A stretch of DNA of 64,000 nucleotides, from the NCBI RefSeq assembly GCF_020215665.1, contig NZ_CP084061.1:186001-250000 (forward strand), in the 5' to 3' direction. The DNA is from Blautia parvula. Lineage in GTDB: Bacteria > Bacillota > Clostridia > Lachnospirales > Lachnospiraceae. Each line of letters begins with the position of its first letter. The first letter of the stretch is position 1. The notes below the pieces were generated by a model that worked only from the letters and a program-made list of their open reading frames with translations, did not search any database and was not told the origin of the DNA. Made by a program: the position numbers and the translations under genes. Shown piece by piece: positions 9,830 to 50,302 of the stretch.

Positions 9830-9965
9830 TCAAATCTCGGAGCGATTCCGAAAATCTGAAAAGGCCGTTCGGCCGAAGTTTCCAAATGTAAAGTAAAAGC
9901 AGAAGGGGTAAAAAGATCCTTATAGGGGAATTTTGCGCCCTGAAGCGGAAAGGGGCATTGTTTTT
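9830..9965 (+). promoter_or_regulatory. Leader of the surface-fibre operon with RBS in a hairpin
   Basis: The region holds short hairpins (TCGGAGCGATTCCGA; GGCCGTTCGGCC) and GCCCT (9937-9941) that can pair with AGGGGC (9951-9956), which includes the Shine-Dalgarno of the adhesin gene. It matches no riboswitch consensus that I recognise (c-di-GMP-I and -II were considered). Translational control is an inference. Confidence 0.4.
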
Positions 9966-12273
9966 ATGAAAAAATGGAAGAAGGTTCTGGCAGCAGGGCT
10001 TCTTACAGTCCTTTTTTCCTGTGCTGTCTGTGCACAGGCAATTTCTGCCGGAAACGGCAGGGATATGCTGCATACGGATGCGCACGGTTTGGCTGTGGGG
10101 ACAGCAGCGGGGGGAAAAGGCCCTCCGTTCAAATCGTCAGGAGGACAGGAATATGGACAGAAGTCCATAGGAGCAGAAAAAACTGCAGTTCAGAAGGAGG
10201 TTGCAGAAAATGATCACAGCAAGAAAGTGGGATTACACGGATGTACAGGAGAAAAGACAGAATATCAGAGCTCATCAGGCTATGAAGAAGACATGGAATC
10301 CGGCCAGATGCCGGGAACAGGCCAGATTTCCGGTCTGGAGACAGGGCGAGGGGAAAAGCCTGCCTGTAGTACATCCGCAGTACAGAAAGAAATGTCCTGT
10401 GATCCAGGTGTGGAGGCACGGGGAATATACAAAGCTGCCGGTCACCCGAAAACACAGTATATATCCGGCAAAGGATATGTACAAAAGAGACAAGAGCAGC
10501 AAAATTCTGACCTGGAACCCGGATATAAACAGAAAAACGGGCAGGATAGCTGTGAGGAAACCGAGATCAGTCTAATGGCTGAAGGAGGTGCAAAAGAGTT
10601 CGGCAGGCAGAAAAAGACGGACGGTTTGGAAGAGCCTGCAGGTTCTGCTTCTGCGCAGAAGCAGCCGGAGGATGTCAGTACGCCCGGTGAAAAGGACAAA
10701 AAGGAAAAACCGGAAAAGCAGCCGGGAAAGGAGAAGCGGCTGGAACAGAAGAAACAGCTAGAGAAAGAGAAACAGCTAGAGCAGGAAAAACAACCAGGGC
10801 AGGAGAAACAGCCAGGGCAGGGTAATCAGCCAGGGCAGGGTAATCAGCCAGGGCAGGAGAAGCAGCCGGAACAGGGTAAACAGCCAGGGCAGGAGAAGCA
10901 GCCGGAACAGGGTAATCAGCCAGAGCAGGAAAAACAGCCGGAACAAGAGGAACAGTCGGGGCAGGAGGCACAGTCGGGGCAGGGTAATCAGCCAGAACTG
11001 GAGGCGCAGCCGGAACAAGAGGAACAGCCAGGGCAGGAGGAACAGCCAGAACAGGAGGTGCAGCCGGAACAGGATACATCCGGGCCGCTGTTGGAGGAAC
11101 AGATACCGGGACAGTATTCCAGAATCTCGGATATGTACCTGAGGAGTGCGGCCACCAGTACCATACAGGTGGGATGGCAGGAATCCTTAGGTTCCATTGA
11201 CCCCGGCCTTTTAAGCCTGGACGATCCGTATAATGTCTCGATCAAGTATGTGGACTCCAGCGATTCTGACAACCAGGATATGCGGGGAAAGTGGCGCCTT
11301 CTTTACTGTGTGCAGTATCAGCACAATGCGCCGGAGGGGCAGATTACCTGGGATGGAGCAGGGCGTGTGTCACCGTCTATTGCCTATCTTATGTACTGGG
11401 GCTGCCGCTACTGGGGCCAAGAGAGCCTGTGGCCAAATTACAGGACAGGATACGGATGGAAATATGATGCACTGGCCACCCAGTATGCTGTCCACATAGT
11501 CAACGGGGAATTCTCCCTGAACACACTTTATAATCATCTCAAAGGATCTAAAAAAGAACAATTCTACAGCATCATCAACAAGATGGTAAATGATGCAAAT
11601 CATCCCCCCTATTACACACCGTTTGCTGACGGATGGAGAGATTTTGACTACGCATTGTCTGACTCCAGTGTGACCTGGACAGCTCAGGATTATAACGGCA
11701 AGGCCGGTTTCACAACAAAATGGATCAGCCAGAACCTGTCGGACGGCCTCACAGACTGCAGCGAGTACATCACATCCAAAAAGGGAACGGCGGACAACGG
11801 TGCCACCGTGATCTGGAAGGACAGCGGCGATGCGTCCGCATTCCGGATCTGGATTCCCAAAACACAATATCTGCTGCTGCAGGAAAAAGGGGCCAAGGTC
11901 ACAGCAACAATCTCAGGAAACCATTCCCTGTATCTGGCGGGATGGGTATATAAAAGCAGTAATTCCAAATATCAGATGGTGACCATGCTGGAGGGCGGCG
12001 GTGGTTCCGCGGCACATAAAAAGACAGTTACAGCCCAGATTCCCAAAAAGGCGGTAAGCTGCTACATTGATCTTCAAAAAGCGGACAAGGATACCGAAGA
12101 AACAAAACCACAGGGCAATGCGGAATTTTCCGGTGCGGTATATGAAGTGAAAAATAAAGCAGGGACCGTGGTGGACAAAATGACCACAAATACATCAGGG
12201 AAAGCCACCAGCGTACCGCTTGCTACAGGAACTTATACAGTCAGGGAGGTTACCGCGCCAAAAGGATATAACC
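9966..12273 (+). CDS. Thioester-domain/CnaB surface adhesin, exon 1
   Basis: First 769 codons of a secreted adhesin split by a group II intron. Seen: a signal peptide (MKKWKKVLAAGLLTVLFSC); a polar low-complexity region (about 30-240); a Pro/Gln/Glu/Gly repeat stalk (about 242-370); a thioester domain with Cys448 in LLYCVQY and Gln506 in the TQXA-type motif ATQYA, the pair that forms an internal thioester for covalent host binding in Gram-positive adhesins; and the start of a CnaB domain (about 696 on) ending in TAPKGYN. Unspliced, the frame stops at 12290 after a few intron codons. Exon 2 is 14936-15747; the spliced protein is 1039 residues. Confidence 0.88.
10690..11080 (+). repeat. In-gene tandem repeat encoding a Pro/Gln/Glu stalk
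   Basis: Imperfect units of 12-18 bp built on CAG CCA GGG CAG GAG/GGT AAA/AAT encode PGQEKQ, PGQGNQ and PEQEEQ variants. This is a typical unstructured spacer that lifts the adhesive domain off the wall. Such arrays are prone to length variation between strains (inference). Confidence 0.85.
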
Positions 12274-13000
12274 GTGTGAAACGTTCCTAGCTGAAAAGGC
12301 TAGGCAGACAGCAAGTGCTGTTTAGAACTATTACTTTGAGAAATCAAATGAGTGGGTAACGCCACAAAGGGTTTCCTCTAATACTCCGACATGCGGGAAA
12401 AGTTGATATTAACATGAACCGTATGAAGCTCGGTGAAGTCGGTTGAAAGTGACCGTAAAGCATTATCAAATGCTACGAAATCTGCTCAGAGGTGGGCGGT
12501 GTCACCCATAGACCGGGAGTCTATAAAATACTCATGGATAGAATGGGTTCGCAAAACTATTGGCGAGACGAACCTGACGAATCTCCGAATGTACGGGTCT
12601 ATAACCCTAATGCACAGAAATGTGTATGCCACGTGCGTGGTGTCAGTGCGGACGAGTAAGATTAGTTGTTATGAAAATCCGTTTATTGTTAAAGGCAGTA
12701 ACAAGCTGACAGGCTCAAAGGAGAATCCTAAAAGTATATGTAAAGATAAAAGTAATGGAACGTTGGAAGCTGCCAACATGGAGAAAATATCTTCTATGAA
12801 GTGGTTGAAAGGAAATCTTTTGTGAAAATAGCAGAAGTATAACTTTATTTATGGCAGTGAAAGCGGTGACATGGTACTGATGAAGCGTCTAACAAACGTG
12901 GAGGGACGGTCACTAGTCTATGAAAGATGTATCATTCATTCTTCTTAGTAAGTTGTTAGAATAAGGTTCTGGTGAGACTAAAAAGGGCAAACCTCAATTA

Positions 13001-13006
13001 AGGAGG
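13001..13006 (+). promoter_or_regulatory. RBS that decides the intron-protein start
   Basis: AGGAGG lies 9 bp before an ATT codon at 13016, but 50 bp before the first in-frame ATG at 13058. Confidence 0.6.
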
Positions 13007-13015
13007 AGCCAACTT

Positions 13016-14833
13016 ATTAAAAAGACAAACAAACTAAGGTACGCTGAGTATTATGATATGCAGTCTAAATTAGACCAATTATATATGCAAAGCAAGAATG
13101 GAAATAACTTTTATAAGCTGACAAAGCTTATGGAAAGTGAAGAAAATATCCGATTAGCCTATCGGAATATAAAGAAGAACATGGGCAGTCATACTGCTGG
13201 TGTTGATGGAAAAACAATAGCTGACATCGAAGATTTGACAGTTGAGGAAGTTGTAACAAAAATACGGGAAATGTTCAAATGGTATGAACCTGAAAAAGTC
13301 CGAAGAGTGTATATCCCTAAACCTGATGGACGGAAACGACCGTTAGGCATTCCCGCTATATGGGACAGGTTATTCCAACAATGTATTCTTCAGATTTTAG
13401 AACCTATATGTGAAGCAAAATTTCATCCACACAGTTACGGATTCCGACCAAACAGAAGTGCTCATCATGCAATAGCAAGAGCAAATCATTTTATGAATAA
13501 TAAAGGGAACGGATACCATTATTGTGTTGATATGGACATTAAAGGATTTTTTGATAATGTAAATCATGGAAAATTGCTAAAACAAATGTGGACAATGGGA
13601 ATACGAGAAAAGAAACTGCTTTCCATAATTTCCACTTTATTAAAAGCAGAAATTATCGGAGAGGGTAAGCCGATAAAAGGAACACCGCAAGGCGGTATAT
13701 TAAGTCCGTTATTGGCAAATATTGTGTTGAATGAACTTGACTGGTGGATTAGCAATCAGTGGGAAACAATCAAAACTATAAGAGAATATACAACACATAA
13801 GGGTGCAAGAAGAGCCTTGATGAGACAAAGGAAGAATCTAAAACATTGCTATATGGTTCGTTATGCCGATGATTTTAAAATCTTCTGTCGAGATTATCCG
13901 AGTGCATTGAGATTGTATCATGCTACGCAAGATTTTATTGAAAGAAGATTGAAATTGGAAATCAGTCCCGAAAAATCAAAAATAGTCAATCTTAGAAAAC
14001 AGCGAAGTGAATTTCTGGGTTTTACTATGTATGTAAGACCAAAAAGAAATGGTTATGTGGCTTATAGTCACATGAGTGACAAGGCAATCAGACATGCACA
14101 TGATAAACTAAAACAATCTATTAAAAGGATTGCAAAGGAACAATCACGTGACGCAGTGTGGAAATATAATACGGTAGTAATGGGAATCCATAATTACTAT
14201 GAAGTAGCCACGCACGTAAACAGAGATTTAGCCCATATGAGTCAACACCTTACAAAATCTTTATACAACAGGCTGAGAAGAGATTGGAGACCAGCGAGTA
14301 AAGCAGATTTATCCATAACACTTTTAAAACGTTATGGCAGGTATAATCCAAAATGGTATAAAGCTCACGATATGATTATCATTCCTATATACACATGGAA
14401 ACACAGGTATGCGATACAATTCAATCAAAATATCTGTCCATATACAAAAGAAGGAAGAGCCTTGATACACAATAATCTAAAAGCGGTGAGCAGGGAAGTT
14501 CTTATACACATACAGAGATATTATTGTGATTATCGTTCTATTGAATATAACGATAATCGTATCTCAAAATTTATTTCTCAATATGGAAAATGTGCAATCA
14601 GTGGCGAAGAATTAACGTTGAGGGATTGGGAGTGTCATCATAAAGTTCCCTTGAAATATGGTGGAACAGACAAATATAACAATCTTATTATTATGATACT
14701 ACCATTTCATAAAGCAATTCATAAAAGGGATAGAAAAGAACTTGACAATCTAATGGAGAAGTATCAGTTATCAGAACAAAAAAGGAAGTTATGTATAGAA
14801 TTACATGAACTGGCTAATCAATCAGAAAAATAG
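13016..14833 (+). CDS. ltrA: Group II intron-encoded reverse transcriptase/maturase with HNH endonuclease
   Basis: Promotes splicing of its intron and its retrohoming into DNA. Seen: reverse transcriptase blocks (RRVYIPKPDGRKRPLGIP; HSYGFRPNRSAHHA; GTPQGGILSPLLANI; the catalytic YADD in MVRYADDFKIF), a maturase X domain (about 390-480), and a C-terminal HNH nuclease (CAISGEE...WECHHKVPLKYGG...HKAIHK). The translation upstream of ATG 13058 reads KKTNKLRYAEYYDMQ, a typical family N-terminus, so the gene probably starts at the ATT codon 13016 (605 residues) behind AGGAGG. From ATG 13058 it would be 591 residues. All key RT and HNH residues look intact. Confidence 0.95.
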   Translation: MKKTNKLRYAEYYDMQSKLDQLYMQSKNGNNFYKLTKLMESEENIRLAYRNIKKNMGSHTAGVDGKTIADIEDLTVEEVVTKIREMFKWYEPEKVRRVYIPKPDGRKRPLGIPAIWDRLFQQCILQILEPICEAKFHPHSYGFRPNRSAHHAIARANHFMNNKGNGYHYCVDMDIKGFFDNVNHGKLLKQMWTMGIREKKLLSIISTLLKAEIIGEGKPIKGTPQGGILSPLLANIVLNELDWWISNQWETIKTIREYTTHKGARRALMRQRKNLKHCYMVRYADDFKIFCRDYPSALRLYHATQDFIERRLKLEISPEKSKIVNLRKQRSEFLGFTMYVRPKRNGYVAYSHMSDKAIRHAHDKLKQSIKRIAKEQSRDAVWKYNTVVMGIHNYYEVATHVNRDLAHMSQHLTKSLYNRLRRDWRPASKADLSITLLKRYGRYNPKWYKAHDMIIIPIYTWKHRYAIQFNQNICPYTKEGRALIHNNLKAVSREVLIHIQRYYCDYRSIEYNDNRISKFISQYGKCAISGEELTLRDWECHHKVPLKYGGTDKYNNLIIMILPFHKAIHKRDRKELDNLMEKYQLSEQKRKLCIELHELANQSEK

Positions 14834-14935
14834 ATACATTGGAGTAGATGGCACGCCGTATGAGGTGAAAGTCTCATGTACGGTGTAGAGTGGGGGAAAA
14901 TTCGGAGATAATATCAAAGAATTACCTATCACTAT

Positions 14936-15747
14936 TGGATAAAAATACATATACGGTTACCTTTACAAACACGGATTTGAATCAGACCGTATACCGGAAA
15001 AGCGTCCGCTCAGAGGAGCCTGTGAAAAAGGGAAATGTGACTTTGAAGAAATTATCATCAGAGTCTGACAAGACCTTAAAGGGTGCGGTTTTTTATCTCT
15101 ATACAAGTAAAAACAAAAAAGTAGGAGAATACACTACGGATGATAAGGGATGTATCACAGTCAAAAATTTACCATGGAACAGTTACTTCTTCATTGAGCA
15201 GACTGCGCCGGAGGGATACGAACTGTCCGATGAGAAGATCGCATTTTCTATAAATAAGGAATCCGCGGGAAAGACCCTGGAGGTTGCGGCCAGGAATACA
15301 CCGAGAAAAGTAAAACTCATTCTGGAAAAAGAGATCCGTGCGGATGAGATCAATTTTGCCAACGGCAACCCCATTTTTCTGTTTGAGGTTAAGGGGGTGG
15401 ATCTGGAAGGAAAGACACATATTCTGCATGGAACTGCCGAATTTACCAGGGAGTATACGGAACAGGAGAAAAACAGTGATGGTACGATCCGAAAAACTGT
15501 CACATTTTCGGAATTACCTGCCGGTACTTACACGGCATATGAGATGGAAGTTATGCGGTATTCACTGGAAGATATTACAGAAATAACAGGAGGCACCAGG
15601 AAGGAAGATACCGTGGTATTTGACCTGATCCAAAACGATGCCGGCCGCGCAGTCTTTATCAATCATAAAGACGAATGGCAGGACTGGTCAGATACGTCTG
15701 TCTGTGAAAATATTATTTTGAAGAGGGAAAAGGAAGAACATGAGTGA
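14936..15747 (+). CDS. Thioester-domain/CnaB surface adhesin, exon 2
   Basis: C-terminal 270 residues of the adhesin, joined to exon 1 by intron removal. Seen: completion of the first CnaB domain (LDKNTYTVTFTN); a second CnaB domain with the isopeptide-type lysine in VTLKKLSSE and the Glu in FFIEQTAPEGYEL; and a third beta-rich module resembling FctA/Spy0128-like pilin domains (KVKLILEKEI...GTYTAYEMEVMRYSLEDI). There is no LPXTG motif or membrane anchor, so retention must depend on partner proteins or pilus assembly (inference). The last 8 bp overlap the next gene. Confidence 0.85.
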
Positions 15748-16321
15748 AGTCAGAAAAAAAGAACGGCTGAAGGAAGCCGCGGCACTGCTGCTGCTGATTC
15801 TTCTGCTGACAGCAGCCGGTCTGGCTGTGGGTGTGGGGAGTGCTTATTTCAGTGACCAGGACGCGCGCAGCAACCGAATCAGACCGGGTGACAGCAATCT
15901 GGAGATCACAGAGGAATTTCATCCCCCGGATGAGTTAAAGCCCGGGGAGGTCATAGCAAAAAGCGTGCAGATTGCCAACAAAGGCAAATCCAGTTGTTTT
16001 ATACGGTGCAGGCTTCTTATGGATGATGAGGAAATCCTGCCCTATCTGCATCTGGGAATCGATTCAGAAAACTGGGAGAAGTCAGAAGATGGATACTATT
16101 ATTACAAAAGCGCACTGGAGATGGGAGAGATCACTACAGAACTGCTGAGACAGATTACCGTGTCAGAGGGTGCACCGGAAGAATTGTTAAAGCGGGGATT
16201 TTCCCTGAGTGTCTATGCGGAATCTTACCAGCAGGGCCAGTTTTTAAAAGACGCCTGGCAGGAGGCATGGAAACATTTTGACAGGAACAAAAAAACAGGG
16301 AAAGAGGAGGGGAATGTATGA
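15740..16321 (+). CDS. SipW-dependent secreted protein (TasA/camelysin-like)
   Basis: A 193-residue exported protein. Seen: an N-terminal hydrophobic segment (about 12-33) ending in GSAYFSDQDARSN, the AYFSD-type motif cleaved by SipW-class signal peptidases, then a beta-rich ectodomain (LKPGEVIAKSVQIANKGKSSCFIRCRL) like those of TasA/camelysin fibre proteins. No wall anchor. It overlaps exon 2 of the adhesin by 8 bp and the next gene by 4 bp, so translation is coupled. Likely a minor subunit or base protein of the surface fibre (inference). Confidence 0.75.
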   Translation: MSEVRKKERLKEAAALLLLILLLTAAGLAVGVGSAYFSDQDARSNRIRPGDSNLEITEEFHPPDELKPGEVIAKSVQIANKGKSSCFIRCRLLMDDEEILPYLHLGIDSENWEKSEDGYYYYKSALEMGEITTELLRQITVSEGAPEELLKRGFSLSVYAESYQQGQFLKDAWQEAWKHFDRNKKTGKEEGNV

Positions 16322-16977
16322 AAAGAAAGAGATATCATCCGCTGTTGTGCATCTGCCTACTGTTTGTAGGATTGAGTCTTCCGGTCCCTGTCCTGGCAGA
16401 AAAGGCCGAAGGTCTGGAAAAAGCCAAGGGGAAGGTGGATATCAGGCTTGAAGAATTCACCCTGGATAGAAACGGCCGGGAAGTACCCTGGAAGGACCTG
16501 GAGGCAGTTATGCCCGGACAGGAGATCATAAAGATTCCCAGAGTCACTAATTTGCAAAATGAATGTGAGATTCGGGCTAAGATTGAAGTGACCATGGGAA
16601 AGGAGGTGAAGCTGCCCGTCACAGAGGATATGATAAAGGGAATGCCAAAAGAATGGAAACGACGGGAGGATGGCTGGTATTACTATGAGAAGAAACTGAA
16701 AAAAGGTGAGAAAACAGACATCTTCCGTTCTTTTACCATTCCTTCTGCGTGGGATACAAAATATGACAGCAGTGGAAATATCATAAAATACTACACGGAG
16801 AACAGCCTGGATATTGTTGTAACCGTGGAGGCTGTGGGAGAGGGAGACTGGACAAAAGAAAAAGCCACAGTACGCTCCCCGAAGACAGGTGATGATACAG
16901 CCCTCTTTTTGACAGCGGTTCTGTGTCTGGGATCTGCGGCTGCGGCCTATGCGGTGTGGAAATGGAGAAAACAATGA
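16318..16977 (+). CDS. Sortase-type wall-anchored protein of the fibre operon
   Basis: A 219-residue surface protein. Seen: a signal peptide (about 1-27, ending VPVLA), a beta-rich ectodomain whose pattern IPRVTNLQNECEIRAKIEV resembles the neighbouring TasA-like proteins, and a C-terminal sorting signal: SPKTGDD (an LPXTG variant), a hydrophobic helix and the basic tail KWRKQ. The sorting signal implies anchoring by a sortase, but none is encoded in this window. Plausibly it anchors the fibre to the wall (inference). Its stop overlaps the sipW start (ATGA). Confidence 0.8.
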   Translation: MKRKRYHPLLCICLLFVGLSLPVPVLAEKAEGLEKAKGKVDIRLEEFTLDRNGREVPWKDLEAVMPGQEIIKIPRVTNLQNECEIRAKIEVTMGKEVKLPVTEDMIKGMPKEWKRREDGWYYYEKKLKKGEKTDIFRSFTIPSAWDTKYDSSGNIIKYYTENSLDIVVTVEAVGEGDWTKEKATVRSPKTGDDTALFLTAVLCLGSAAAAYAVWKWRKQ

Positions 16978-17471
16978 AAAAAGCATGTTACCGCATAGGG
17001 GAAATCTTGTACTGGGTACTTTGTCTGCTTTTGATAGCCAACATAGCCTTATGTATTTTCGGTATTCGTCCATTTGTTGTTGTCAGCGGATCAATGGAAC
17101 CGGCCATTCAAACGGGAAGTATATCCTGGGTAAATCTCCGCGCGGATGCCGATCACCTGCAGCAGGGGGACATTCTGGCTTTTGAAAGAAATGACGGAGA
17201 ACTGGTCCTGCACCGGATTCTCCGAAGAACAGAAGCGGGAATAGTGACAAAGGGGGATGCCAATTCGGTGCCGGATGCGGCTTTGGTGAGAGTACACCAG
17301 ATAAAAGGTAAGGTTTTGTTTAGCGTCCCGTATGTGGGAAAGGCGTTTATGAAAAACGCAGAAGAGTTTGCCGTATTTTTTTTAACAGGCAGTGTGATTT
17401 TATTTATTTTATTAAAAACAGTGAAAATTTCAGGAGGAACGTATTATGAGAAACATAACACGGAAGAGTAA
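16974..17471 (+). CDS. sipW: Signal peptidase I, SipW (ER) type
   Basis: Membrane protease that removes signal peptides from TasA-like proteins. Seen: an N-terminal membrane helix (about 11-30), the catalytic Ser40 in VVSGSMEP, His80 in LVLHRIL (a Ser-His dyad typical of the ER/archaeal type rather than Ser-Lys), TKGDANSVPD, and a C-terminal membrane helix. I chose ATG 16974, which overlaps the upstream stop and follows GGAG; an ATG at 16962 is possible. It sits between its two probable substrates (genes at 15740 and 17446), as in the Bacillus tapA-sipW-tasA operon. Confidence 0.92.
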   Translation: MKKACYRIGEILYWVLCLLLIANIALCIFGIRPFVVVSGSMEPAIQTGSISWVNLRADADHLQQGDILAFERNDGELVLHRILRRTEAGIVTKGDANSVPDAALVRVHQIKGKVLFSVPYVGKAFMKNAEEFAVFFLTGSVILFILLKTVKISGGTYYEKHNTEE

Positions 17472-18138
17472 AAAACAAGCATTTCTTTTATGTCTGGCAC
17501 TGGCAGCCATACTTTTGGCCGGAAGTGCGGCGGCGTACTTTACGGACAGGGAACAGGTGAAAAACCATTTAACCATCGGTAAAGTGGATATTACCCTGAC
17601 AGAACCGAAGTGGGACGCTGTGCCTGAGAAAGAAAAGCAGGATATCACGCCCAATAAAAAGCTGATCAAAGATCCTAAGGTGACCAATGTGGGGATAAAT
17701 GACGCTTTTGTCTTTGTCACAGTACAGGTGCCGGTGGCAGATGTCATTACTGCAAACCAGGACGGCAGCAGGAATCCAAAGGCACTTACGGAACTTTATT
17801 CCTGGACCGTCAACAGCGGTTGGACAAGGATGGGAAATGCGGCAGACATTAAAAATGAGAGTAATGTGGTGGTAGCCCATGAGTACAAATATGTATACGG
17901 CACAGAGTCTGCCTGCACCGCGCTGGCAAAAGGAATCACAACACCGGAGCTTTTCAGTTCCGTAACTTTTGCCAATGTGATCGAGGGCGAAAAAATGCCG
18001 GATGGAACTGCCATGGAGGAGGCAGCAACGGATATTGATCTGAAGGCTTTTGCCATTCAGACTACGGATCTTACGGAGAAGGATGTGACGGACCCTGCAA
18101 ACGTCTGGAAAATTTTTGAAACACAGAATAAATCCTGA
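17446..18138 (+). CDS. TasA/camelysin-family SipW-dependent fibre protein
   Basis: A 230-residue exported protein and the probable main fibre subunit. Seen: a signal segment (about 10-30) ending SAAAYFTDREQVKNHLTIGKVDI, the SipW-type cleavage context, then a TasA/camelysin-like beta domain (ITPNKKLIKDPKVTNVGINDAFVFVTV). The start overlaps the end of sipW by 26 bp and has a strong AGGAGG. No anchor or sortase motif. By analogy with B. subtilis TasA it may polymerise into biofilm fibres (inference). Last gene of the operon. Confidence 0.82.
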   Translation: MRNITRKSKKQAFLLCLALAAILLAGSAAAYFTDREQVKNHLTIGKVDITLTEPKWDAVPEKEKQDITPNKKLIKDPKVTNVGINDAFVFVTVQVPVADVITANQDGSRNPKALTELYSWTVNSGWTRMGNAADIKNESNVVVAHEYKYVYGTESACTALAKGITTPELFSSVTFANVIEGEKMPDGTAMEEAATDIDLKAFAIQTTDLTEKDVTDPANVWKIFETQNKS

Positions 18139-30286: not shown

Positions 30287-30350
30287 AAAATAAAAGTGGA
30301 GCTGATAAGTCAATATCCGAACACTCCTGATTCGGATTTGCACTATTAAG

Positions 30351-30699
30351 TGGACCTGGCGGGAATCGAACCCGCGTCCGAAAGTCTATCCCTTGAGGCA
30401 TCTCCCATCACAGTCATTCTTTTAACATTCCCTCATACAACCGCCGGATGACAGGCTGATGTACTTAGTAGCTTCATGAATCTTTTACTTTCTCAAAGCT
30501 TTGAAAGTAAAGGGCCCTGCAAAGTCGATGCCGGATTCCCGGGCAGCAGGTGACCCGGGGCCGACAAGCTGCAATTAGGCAGCTAACGCTAAATTATTAT
30601 TGTCTGCGTTTATATTTAAGTTCCAGGTTGTTGCGCAGTCCCGGAGTCTGCGGATGGCTTCCCCAACTTCAAAACCCCCGTCGAAACCAGTACAAGCCC
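30351..30699 (-). ncRNA. ssrA: Transfer-messenger RNA (tmRNA, SsrA)
   Basis: Rescues stalled ribosomes with SmpB by adding a degradation tag. Seen on the minus strand: the 5' end GGGCTTGTACTGGTTTCGACGG, with the conserved tRNA-like start; the tag frame GCA GAC AAT AAT AAT TTA GCG TTA GCT GCC TAA, encoding ADNNNLALAA; pseudoknot stems in between; and the 3' T-arm GCGGGTTCGATTCCCGC. GGGCTTG pairs with CAGGTCC to close the acceptor stem, and the CCA end is not encoded. Length about 349 nt. It has its own promoter and terminator. Confidence 0.97.
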
Positions 30700-50231: not shown

Positions 50232-50302
50232 AGCAGATAACGGGAATCGAACCCGCCTCTCCAGCTTGGGAAGCTGGCGTTCTACCGATGAACTATATCT
50301 GC
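50232..50302 (-). tRNA. tRNA-Gly (anticodon CCC)
   Basis: Minus strand: acceptor GCAGATA / TATCTGC, D-arm with TTCATCGGTAGAAC, anticodon stem CCAGC/GCTGG around loop TTCCCAA (anticodon CCC), and T-arm GCGGG TTCGATT CCCGT. The CCA end is not encoded. It has its own promoter, about 135 nt upstream, and a terminator. Confidence 0.93.

Follow-up and report, generated by a model that had tools for sequence, protein, structure and literature searches.

Does a group II intron lodged in a surface-protein gene silence that gene, govern it, or pass through it as a parasite? The question arises from a 64-kb stretch of DNA (the window: the whole of the sequence analysed), in which a preliminary description had placed such an intron at 12274-14935, within a gene for a putative adhesin, and had predicted that its exact removal restores the reading frame. 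The sequences quoted in that description are present where it had located them, and the intron, at precisely those borders, is borne out by the matches collected in Table 1.

Table 1. Coordinates of the intron, its guide sequences and the genes of the surface-protein locus, in window positions.
Feature	Position	Strand	Evidence
Group II intron, complete, 2,662 nt, GTGTG...CTAT	12274..14935	+	Rfam, two-copy comparison, empty allele, G403 copy
Ribozyme core, RF02004 (group-II-D1D4-5)	12323..12527	+	Rfam, 171 bits vs gathering 34.5
Domains V + VI, RF00029	14851..14935	+	Rfam, 57.3 bits vs gathering 40
Reverse transcriptase/maturase, YADD, C-terminal HNH-like region	13058..14833	+	ORF, PF00078 135.7 bits
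IBS2, exon −11 to −7, AGGAT	12263..12267	+	4/5 pair with EBS2
IBS1, exon −6 to −1, ATAACC	12268..12273	+	5/6 pair with EBS1, mismatch at −1
EBS2, ACCCT	12604..12608	+	Covariation, exon −7..−11 with intron 331-335, z 6.4-9.5
EBS1, AGTTGT	12664..12669	+	Covariation, exon −1..−6 with intron 391-396, z 6.0-9.7
EBS3, A, pairs with T at 14936	12718	+	Exon +1 with intron 445
5′ exon, surface-protein gene	9966..12273	+	ORF 9933-12290; likely ATG at 9966 (by eye)
3′ exon, surface-protein gene: first CnaB end, second SpaA domain, C-terminus	14936..15747	+	
BsaA/camelysin-like protein	15740-16321	+	TIGR04090 60.1 bits, cut-off 60
ORF without any profile match	16318-16977	+	
Type I signal peptidase	16923-17471	+	TIGR02228 87.3, cut-off 51.85
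BsaA/camelysin-like protein	17446-18138	+	TIGR04088 24.8, cut-off 19

The element is a structurally complete group II intron. Both a GUGYG start and an AY end are present, and the fold of domain VI leaves a bulged A at 14928, the eighth base counted from the intron 3′ end; domains V and VI fold with a z score of −2.81, equally good folds arising in 2 of 200 shuffles. A covariance-model search for these two domains, proposed in the preliminary description, returned the RF00029 match of Table 1 and no other at the gathering score within the 64-kb window. The domain V motif ACGCCGTATG recurs in five of ten relatives checked, including that from Halobacillus, and as a one-base variant in one; in four of the ten the pattern was not found.

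The borders are fixed by a second copy of the intron at C1:4905725 of the same genome (6.25 Mb, a single contig). A nested insertion in the second copy aside, the two are identical at 2,662 of 2,662 nucleotides, and they part company immediately outside: exon base −1 is C in the window and T at the second copy, exon base +1 is T in the window and A at the second copy. Because the flanking bases differ on either side of identical copies, 12274 and 14935 are the exact borders.

Between these borders lies an open frame for a reverse transcriptase (591 codons from the ATG at 13058), which also matches the group II reverse transcriptase/maturase family TIGR04416 at 360 bits against a cut-off of 300. 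Its C-terminal region we take to be HNH-like from a CHH...N...H pattern; the Pfam scan of the protein reported no HNH match. The frame extends upstream of the ATG as far as an AUU at 13016, preceded by AAGGAGGAG (window 13000-13060). ATG or TTG occurs nearby in several further relatives, and the Halobacillus relative (L019) has ATT at the same position, which suggests that translation probably starts at the AUU. The record titles of relatives, in the best 80 of 109 stretches, carry by impression mostly Firmicutes-type names; exceptions include MAGs labelled Prevotellaceae and Leucobacter. Class B intron-encoded proteins are reported from Firmicutes only, in the available text of a review (PMC4424553).

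Joining 12273 to 14936 is predicted to restore the frame in phase 1, through a codon split C/TG, as the preliminary description had it. Left unspliced, the frame continues past GGA TAT AAC as CGT GTG AAA CGT TCC TAG; the stop is the sixth codon, in agreement with the earlier claim of a stop within six. Intron-free alleles, which the same description had advised seeking, are present in related genomes. The surface-protein gene was found in 4 of 20 genomes of the genus, its own included (E 1e-20), and is uninterrupted in all three other carriers: G403 and G402, whose proteins are 92% identical over 379 residues, and G405, at 60%. The exon frames of the window match those of these orthologues.

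In G403 the 5′ exon alignment ends 4 bases before the border and, once extended, at L132:2641; the 3′ exon alignment begins at 2642, where the frame is uninterrupted. For both G403 and G402 the 5′ alignment plus 4 bases meets the 3′ alignment with zero bases between. In G405 the 5′ alignment ends 30 nt short, the border having been reached by extension and by reading out the protein, and no DNA match was obtained for the 3′ exon. With extensions of 4, 4 and 30 bases, in none of the three congeners does the empty-site junction differ from that expected of the intron borders. The empty site of G403 reads GGGTATGAAC/TGGAT (GYELD, the slash marking the junction), and that of the window GGATATAACC/TGGAT (GYN, with LD spanning the junction).

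The interrupted gene opens with a signal-peptide-like start followed by a Q/P/E-rich repeat at about 10.74-11.09 kb (by eye). The intron falls within the first SpaA/CnaB domain (PF17802, residues 727-780 of ORF 9933-12290, 40.3 bits), and a second SpaA domain (PF17802, residues 32-119, 80.5 bits) lies in the 3′ exon. Of the C-terminal CnaB and pilin-like domains named earlier, only the former stands: the pilin-like match (NF033902) scores 34.5 bits, under the curated cut-off of 95. No LPXTG was seen by eye in the 3′ exon. A YCVQ motif, picked out by eye, is presumably thioester-like; Pfam TED was not reported in this protein at 0.001. The signal peptidase encoded downstream is under the cut-off of the SipW model NF046067 (76.2 of 190). 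Elsewhere in the window Rfam places a tmRNA (30348-30699, minus strand) and a tRNA gene (50232-50302, minus strand).

'Adhesin' is a name inferred from domains; it is reasonable given these domains and a similar gene set in the element that holds the second copy. That set (L099:13026-18516) comprises two camelysin-like proteins, a signal-peptidase-like ORF (by eye) and an 851-aa SpaA protein, and resembles window 9966-18138. The surface protein beside the second copy is 34% identical to that of the window in the shared part; its TED match scores 20.1, under the cut-off of 22.

The gene that the second copy itself occupies encodes a lysozyme-like domain (PF13702, 79.3 bits) before the intron and CHAP (PF05257, 62.4 bits) after it, a layout that we take to be that of the orf14-like gene of Tn916-type elements. 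A TraG-type ATPase (PF19044, 38.8 bits) is close by and, judged by such neighbouring transfer-type genes, the copy sits in an apparent conjugative element. Insertion of the orf14 type is thereby seen in the second copy and not in the window copy, which lies in the CnaB gene.

The nested insertion in the second copy is 1,868 nt long and falls in the YADD motif of the reverse transcriptase. It is itself a group II intron (L099:9327-11194, within G000:C1:4898000-4917500, border ± one base), with an RF01999 core and a reverse transcriptase bearing a GIIM domain; together with the second copy it forms a bacterial twintron. Three further reverse transcriptase loci in this genome (G000:C1:972327, 3705860 and 6128153), of equal score and each with a 465-codon frame, are probably another multicopy group II intron.

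A third copy is found in G403, again a single-contig genome, in which the surface-protein site is empty. The intron there is 100% identical over 2,662 nt, uninterrupted, and resides in that genome's own orf14-like gene after ...GGCTATAATT. The flanks are far less alike: between the two orf14-like genes, identity is 72.0% across the upstream 236 nt and 66.7% across the downstream 312 nt, and 63-78% in other pieces from upstream; at the chromosomal surface-protein locus the two species share 82-88% identity. Introns that are identical while their surroundings differ so much point to very recent movement. Eight of the 20 genomes of the genus have between them 11 orf14-like places; two hold the intron and nine read through as YG or FG. 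The closest further relative among the matches listed, from Halobacillus (reverse transcriptase 69% identical), also lies in a lysozyme-like gene, after ...TATAACT. Phages and viral contigs yielded no match to the intron; 157 plasmid records were matched, none of them covering 80% of the intron, and the best reverse transcriptase among them is 62.6% identical.

Covariation between exon and intron positions locates the guides by which the intron would recognize its site. Among 87 of 94 introns (the window included; repeated 13-mers and short flanks removed, near-invariant columns skipped) the twelve top signals all fall within the runs assigned to EBS1, EBS2 and EBS3, with z values of 6.0 to 9.7 that ignore kinship among introns; the next signal has a z of 4.1. 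The runs are ordered and antiparallel, matching expectation. Exon +1 pairs with intron position 445 (EBS3) in 73 of 75 cases against 31.5 expected. EBS3-IBS3 pairing at exon +1 distinguishes group IIB from IIA introns, and the window intron is very probably of the IIB type on this evidence. In a table of 58 introns (the window plus 57 of the 95 relatives with a 5′ border, 38 being left out for a misfit to the loop pattern or a short flank), EBS1 pairs at a mean of 5.62 of 6 positions as against 2.94 after shuffling (shuffle maximum 3.52); for 48 distinct pairs the values are 5.63 and 2.83. An initial EBS1 candidate, GTTATG (pairing with −7 to −2), was dropped when loop alignment and covariation put EBS1 at intron 391-396.

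EBS1 pairs at 6 of 6 positions at both orf14-like sites, 5 of 6 at the window site and 4 of 6 at the empty surface-protein sites of G403, G402 and G405. Over all 12 positions the window site totals 10 (9 of them Watson-Crick), the orf14-like site in the same genome 10 (8 Watson-Crick, with a mismatch at +1) and that in G403 11, and the empty sites of G403, G402 and G405 total 10, 9 and 9. EBS1 favours the orf14 sites, then, and the 12-position total does not separate the two sites in this genome. Since both of these total 10 of 12, and the empty G403 site likewise, pairing alone proves neither direction nor site choice. Of 122,628 window positions, 107 score at least 10; we infer that the reverse transcriptase must add site specificity beyond pairing. 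Relative to the empty G403 allele, two exon changes in the window (−4 G to A and −2 A to C) improve EBS1 pairing and a third (−8 G to A) costs one pair with EBS2; the three changes fit chance, target creation and later adaptation alike.

What, then, is the intron doing in the surface-protein gene? It is very probably a mobile group IIB-type intron whose usual home would be the lysozyme/CHAP (Tn916 orf14-like) gene of conjugative elements, and which appears to have been copied recently into the chromosomal CnaB gene, presumably by reverse splicing and target-primed reverse transcription, at a target (...AGGAT ATAACC/T) that pairs with EBS2, EBS1 and EBS3 at 10 of 12 positions. Once transcribed, the RNA would fold with the maturase, be cut at 12273/12274 and be joined to 14936, restoring the CTG codon. 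Spliced RNA would give the full surface protein, unspliced RNA one that breaks off within the first CnaB domain. As the intron most likely splices, the gene would be spared and the cost to the host would be modest. The apparent AUU start of the reverse transcriptase weighs against this reading.

An insertion that is in effect a knockout, splicing here being too poor to yield functional protein, is unlikely, and is the strongest of the competing explanations. The mismatch between EBS1 and IBS1 at −1, a feature of the surface-protein site that counts against the reading just given, could lower splicing, and the 100% identity marks an insertion so recent that selection may have lacked time to test it. 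However, RNA core, domains V and VI and reverse transcriptase are all intact, the guides pair at as many positions as they do at the orf14-like site in the same genome, and both exons are still open and match intact orthologues. With EBS1, EBS2 and EBS3 assigned, splicing from a fully paired and from a mismatched IBS1 can be compared within the same cell.

It is quite improbable that movement ran the other way, from the chromosome into conjugative elements. This would suit the fact that the window copy is uninterrupted and the second copy holds the nested intron, as well as the equal 12-position pairing at the two sites; but the nested intron could be a later arrival, or could have been lost through RNA splicing in transfer, G403 combines an uninterrupted orf14-like copy with an empty surface-protein site, and the Halobacillus relative too is in a lysozyme-like gene.

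Still less probable is a regulatory switch, in which splicing would control output of the surface protein. The preliminary description had raised this possibility: dependence of output on splicing follows logically from the stop at the sixth codon of the unspliced frame, and nothing in the analysis, whose search for regulatory features covered additional domain V/VI units, points to regulation. In C. tetani a surface-layer gene holds a group II intron that is alternatively spliced, according to the available text of its description (PMC3919590); in the window a single pair of domains V and VI reaches the gathering score, so that there is no set of alternative 3′ exons, and splicing of that kind was rejected. 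The intron is absent, moreover, from all three congeners that carry the gene, and its identity among copies marks it as recent. Identical copies in a transferable-looking element and in a related species argue for a genetic parasite of known kind that jumped recently, and not for a new gene switch.

An assembly artefact, for which the identity of the copies is the whole case, is barely conceivable given a single-contig genome, different flanks for each copy, a nested intron in one of them and an identical copy in a second single-contig genome (G403).

The preliminary description had further regarded residence within a chromosomal gene as an unusual setting, and a survey of relatives does not bear this view out for the clade. 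The relatives comprise 109 loci: the best 80 of 109 stretches in one search plus 29 loci from genomes of the family, where 35 of 397 genomes matched at 1e-100 (its own included) and only some matches were taken up as loci. Of the 109, 95 could be given a 5′ border; 77 have both borders and enough flank for the frame count, and 50 of these have at least 40 open codons on each side. Codon phase matches across the intron in 48 of the 50 (46 in phase 1, two in phase 0), the exceptions being L113 and L076; three of the 50 (L047, L109 and L121) start with neither GTGYG nor GCGCG. Grouping by short peptide similarity, which merges DnaE-type with PolC-type sites, leaves 31 sites, 29 of them phase-matching and 27 in phase 1.

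Of the 31 sites, 21 have G at −13, 21 have A at −12 and 23 have A at −6; the −13/−12 bases are AA at the window site and CA at the orf14-like site in the same genome. In phase 1, GA at −13/−12 opens a codon for Asp or Glu, a possible reason for the bias in phase. Some of the interrupted genes are conserved: Pfam names in the flanks include DNA polymerase III alpha (L054, L070), UvrD (L050, L067), DHH (L066), a Y-family polymerase (L087) and the T4SS coupling protein (L059, L045, L093). Targeting of a conserved CnaB motif across the clade was considered and rejected: SpaA/CnaB appears in none of the 13 matched flank pieces among 20 scanned, the other seven having no Pfam match at 1e-5.

In-frame residence inside genes is, judged from these flanks, common in the clade of this intron, and the survey suggests that its relatives often lie in frame inside conserved genes. 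This frequency contrasts with the rule given in the available part of a review, that introns of bacteria are mostly found outside housekeeping genes, residence in such genes being named there for cyanobacteria and for the CL and ML lineages (PMC4424553). Among the matches listed in literature searches, no title concerned the codon phase of bacterial group II introns and the phrase 'adhesin gene' was absent.

One further idea is improbable. Since two genes, both for secreted or cell-wall proteins, are interrupted in one codon phase by an identical intron, the copies could trans-splice or recombine to produce in-frame chimeras, joining the N-terminus of the surface protein to the CHAP amidase, or the lysozyme to the CnaB C-terminus. 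The intron would then shuttle exons between conjugative element and chromosome. On a wider view, its clade would seem to persist through phase-1 sites, at codons of conserved, often acidic motifs in essential or conjugation genes.

Three known systems put the locus in context, each as described in the available text of its report. Ll.LtrB of Lactococcus is likewise a mobile intron; it recognizes mRNAs by base pairing and gives rise to chimeric RNAs by reverse splicing into them (PMC6248898), whereas here two genes have identical, same-phase introns in residence and the chimeras are hypothetical. C.te.I1 of Clostridium tetani, a group II intron most similar to class B, resembles the window intron in occupying a surface-layer gene whose frames are joined by splicing; it is without an ORF and without EBS2, has a 5′ site shifted by 8 nt and carries four domain V/VI motifs with separate 3′ exons (PMC3919590), whereas in the window intron an ORF and EBS2 are present, the border is standard and these domains occur as one pair. 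A further parallel is Tn5397 of Clostridioides difficile, a conjugative transposon whose orf14 holds a group II intron; this intron is reported to splice and to need its intron-encoded protein for doing so (PMC4430133). The difference lies in the address, which for the window copy is a surface-protein gene of the chromosome. Three sites holding one identical intron in two species offer a snapshot of a retroelement apparently leaving its conjugative vehicle for the chromosome.
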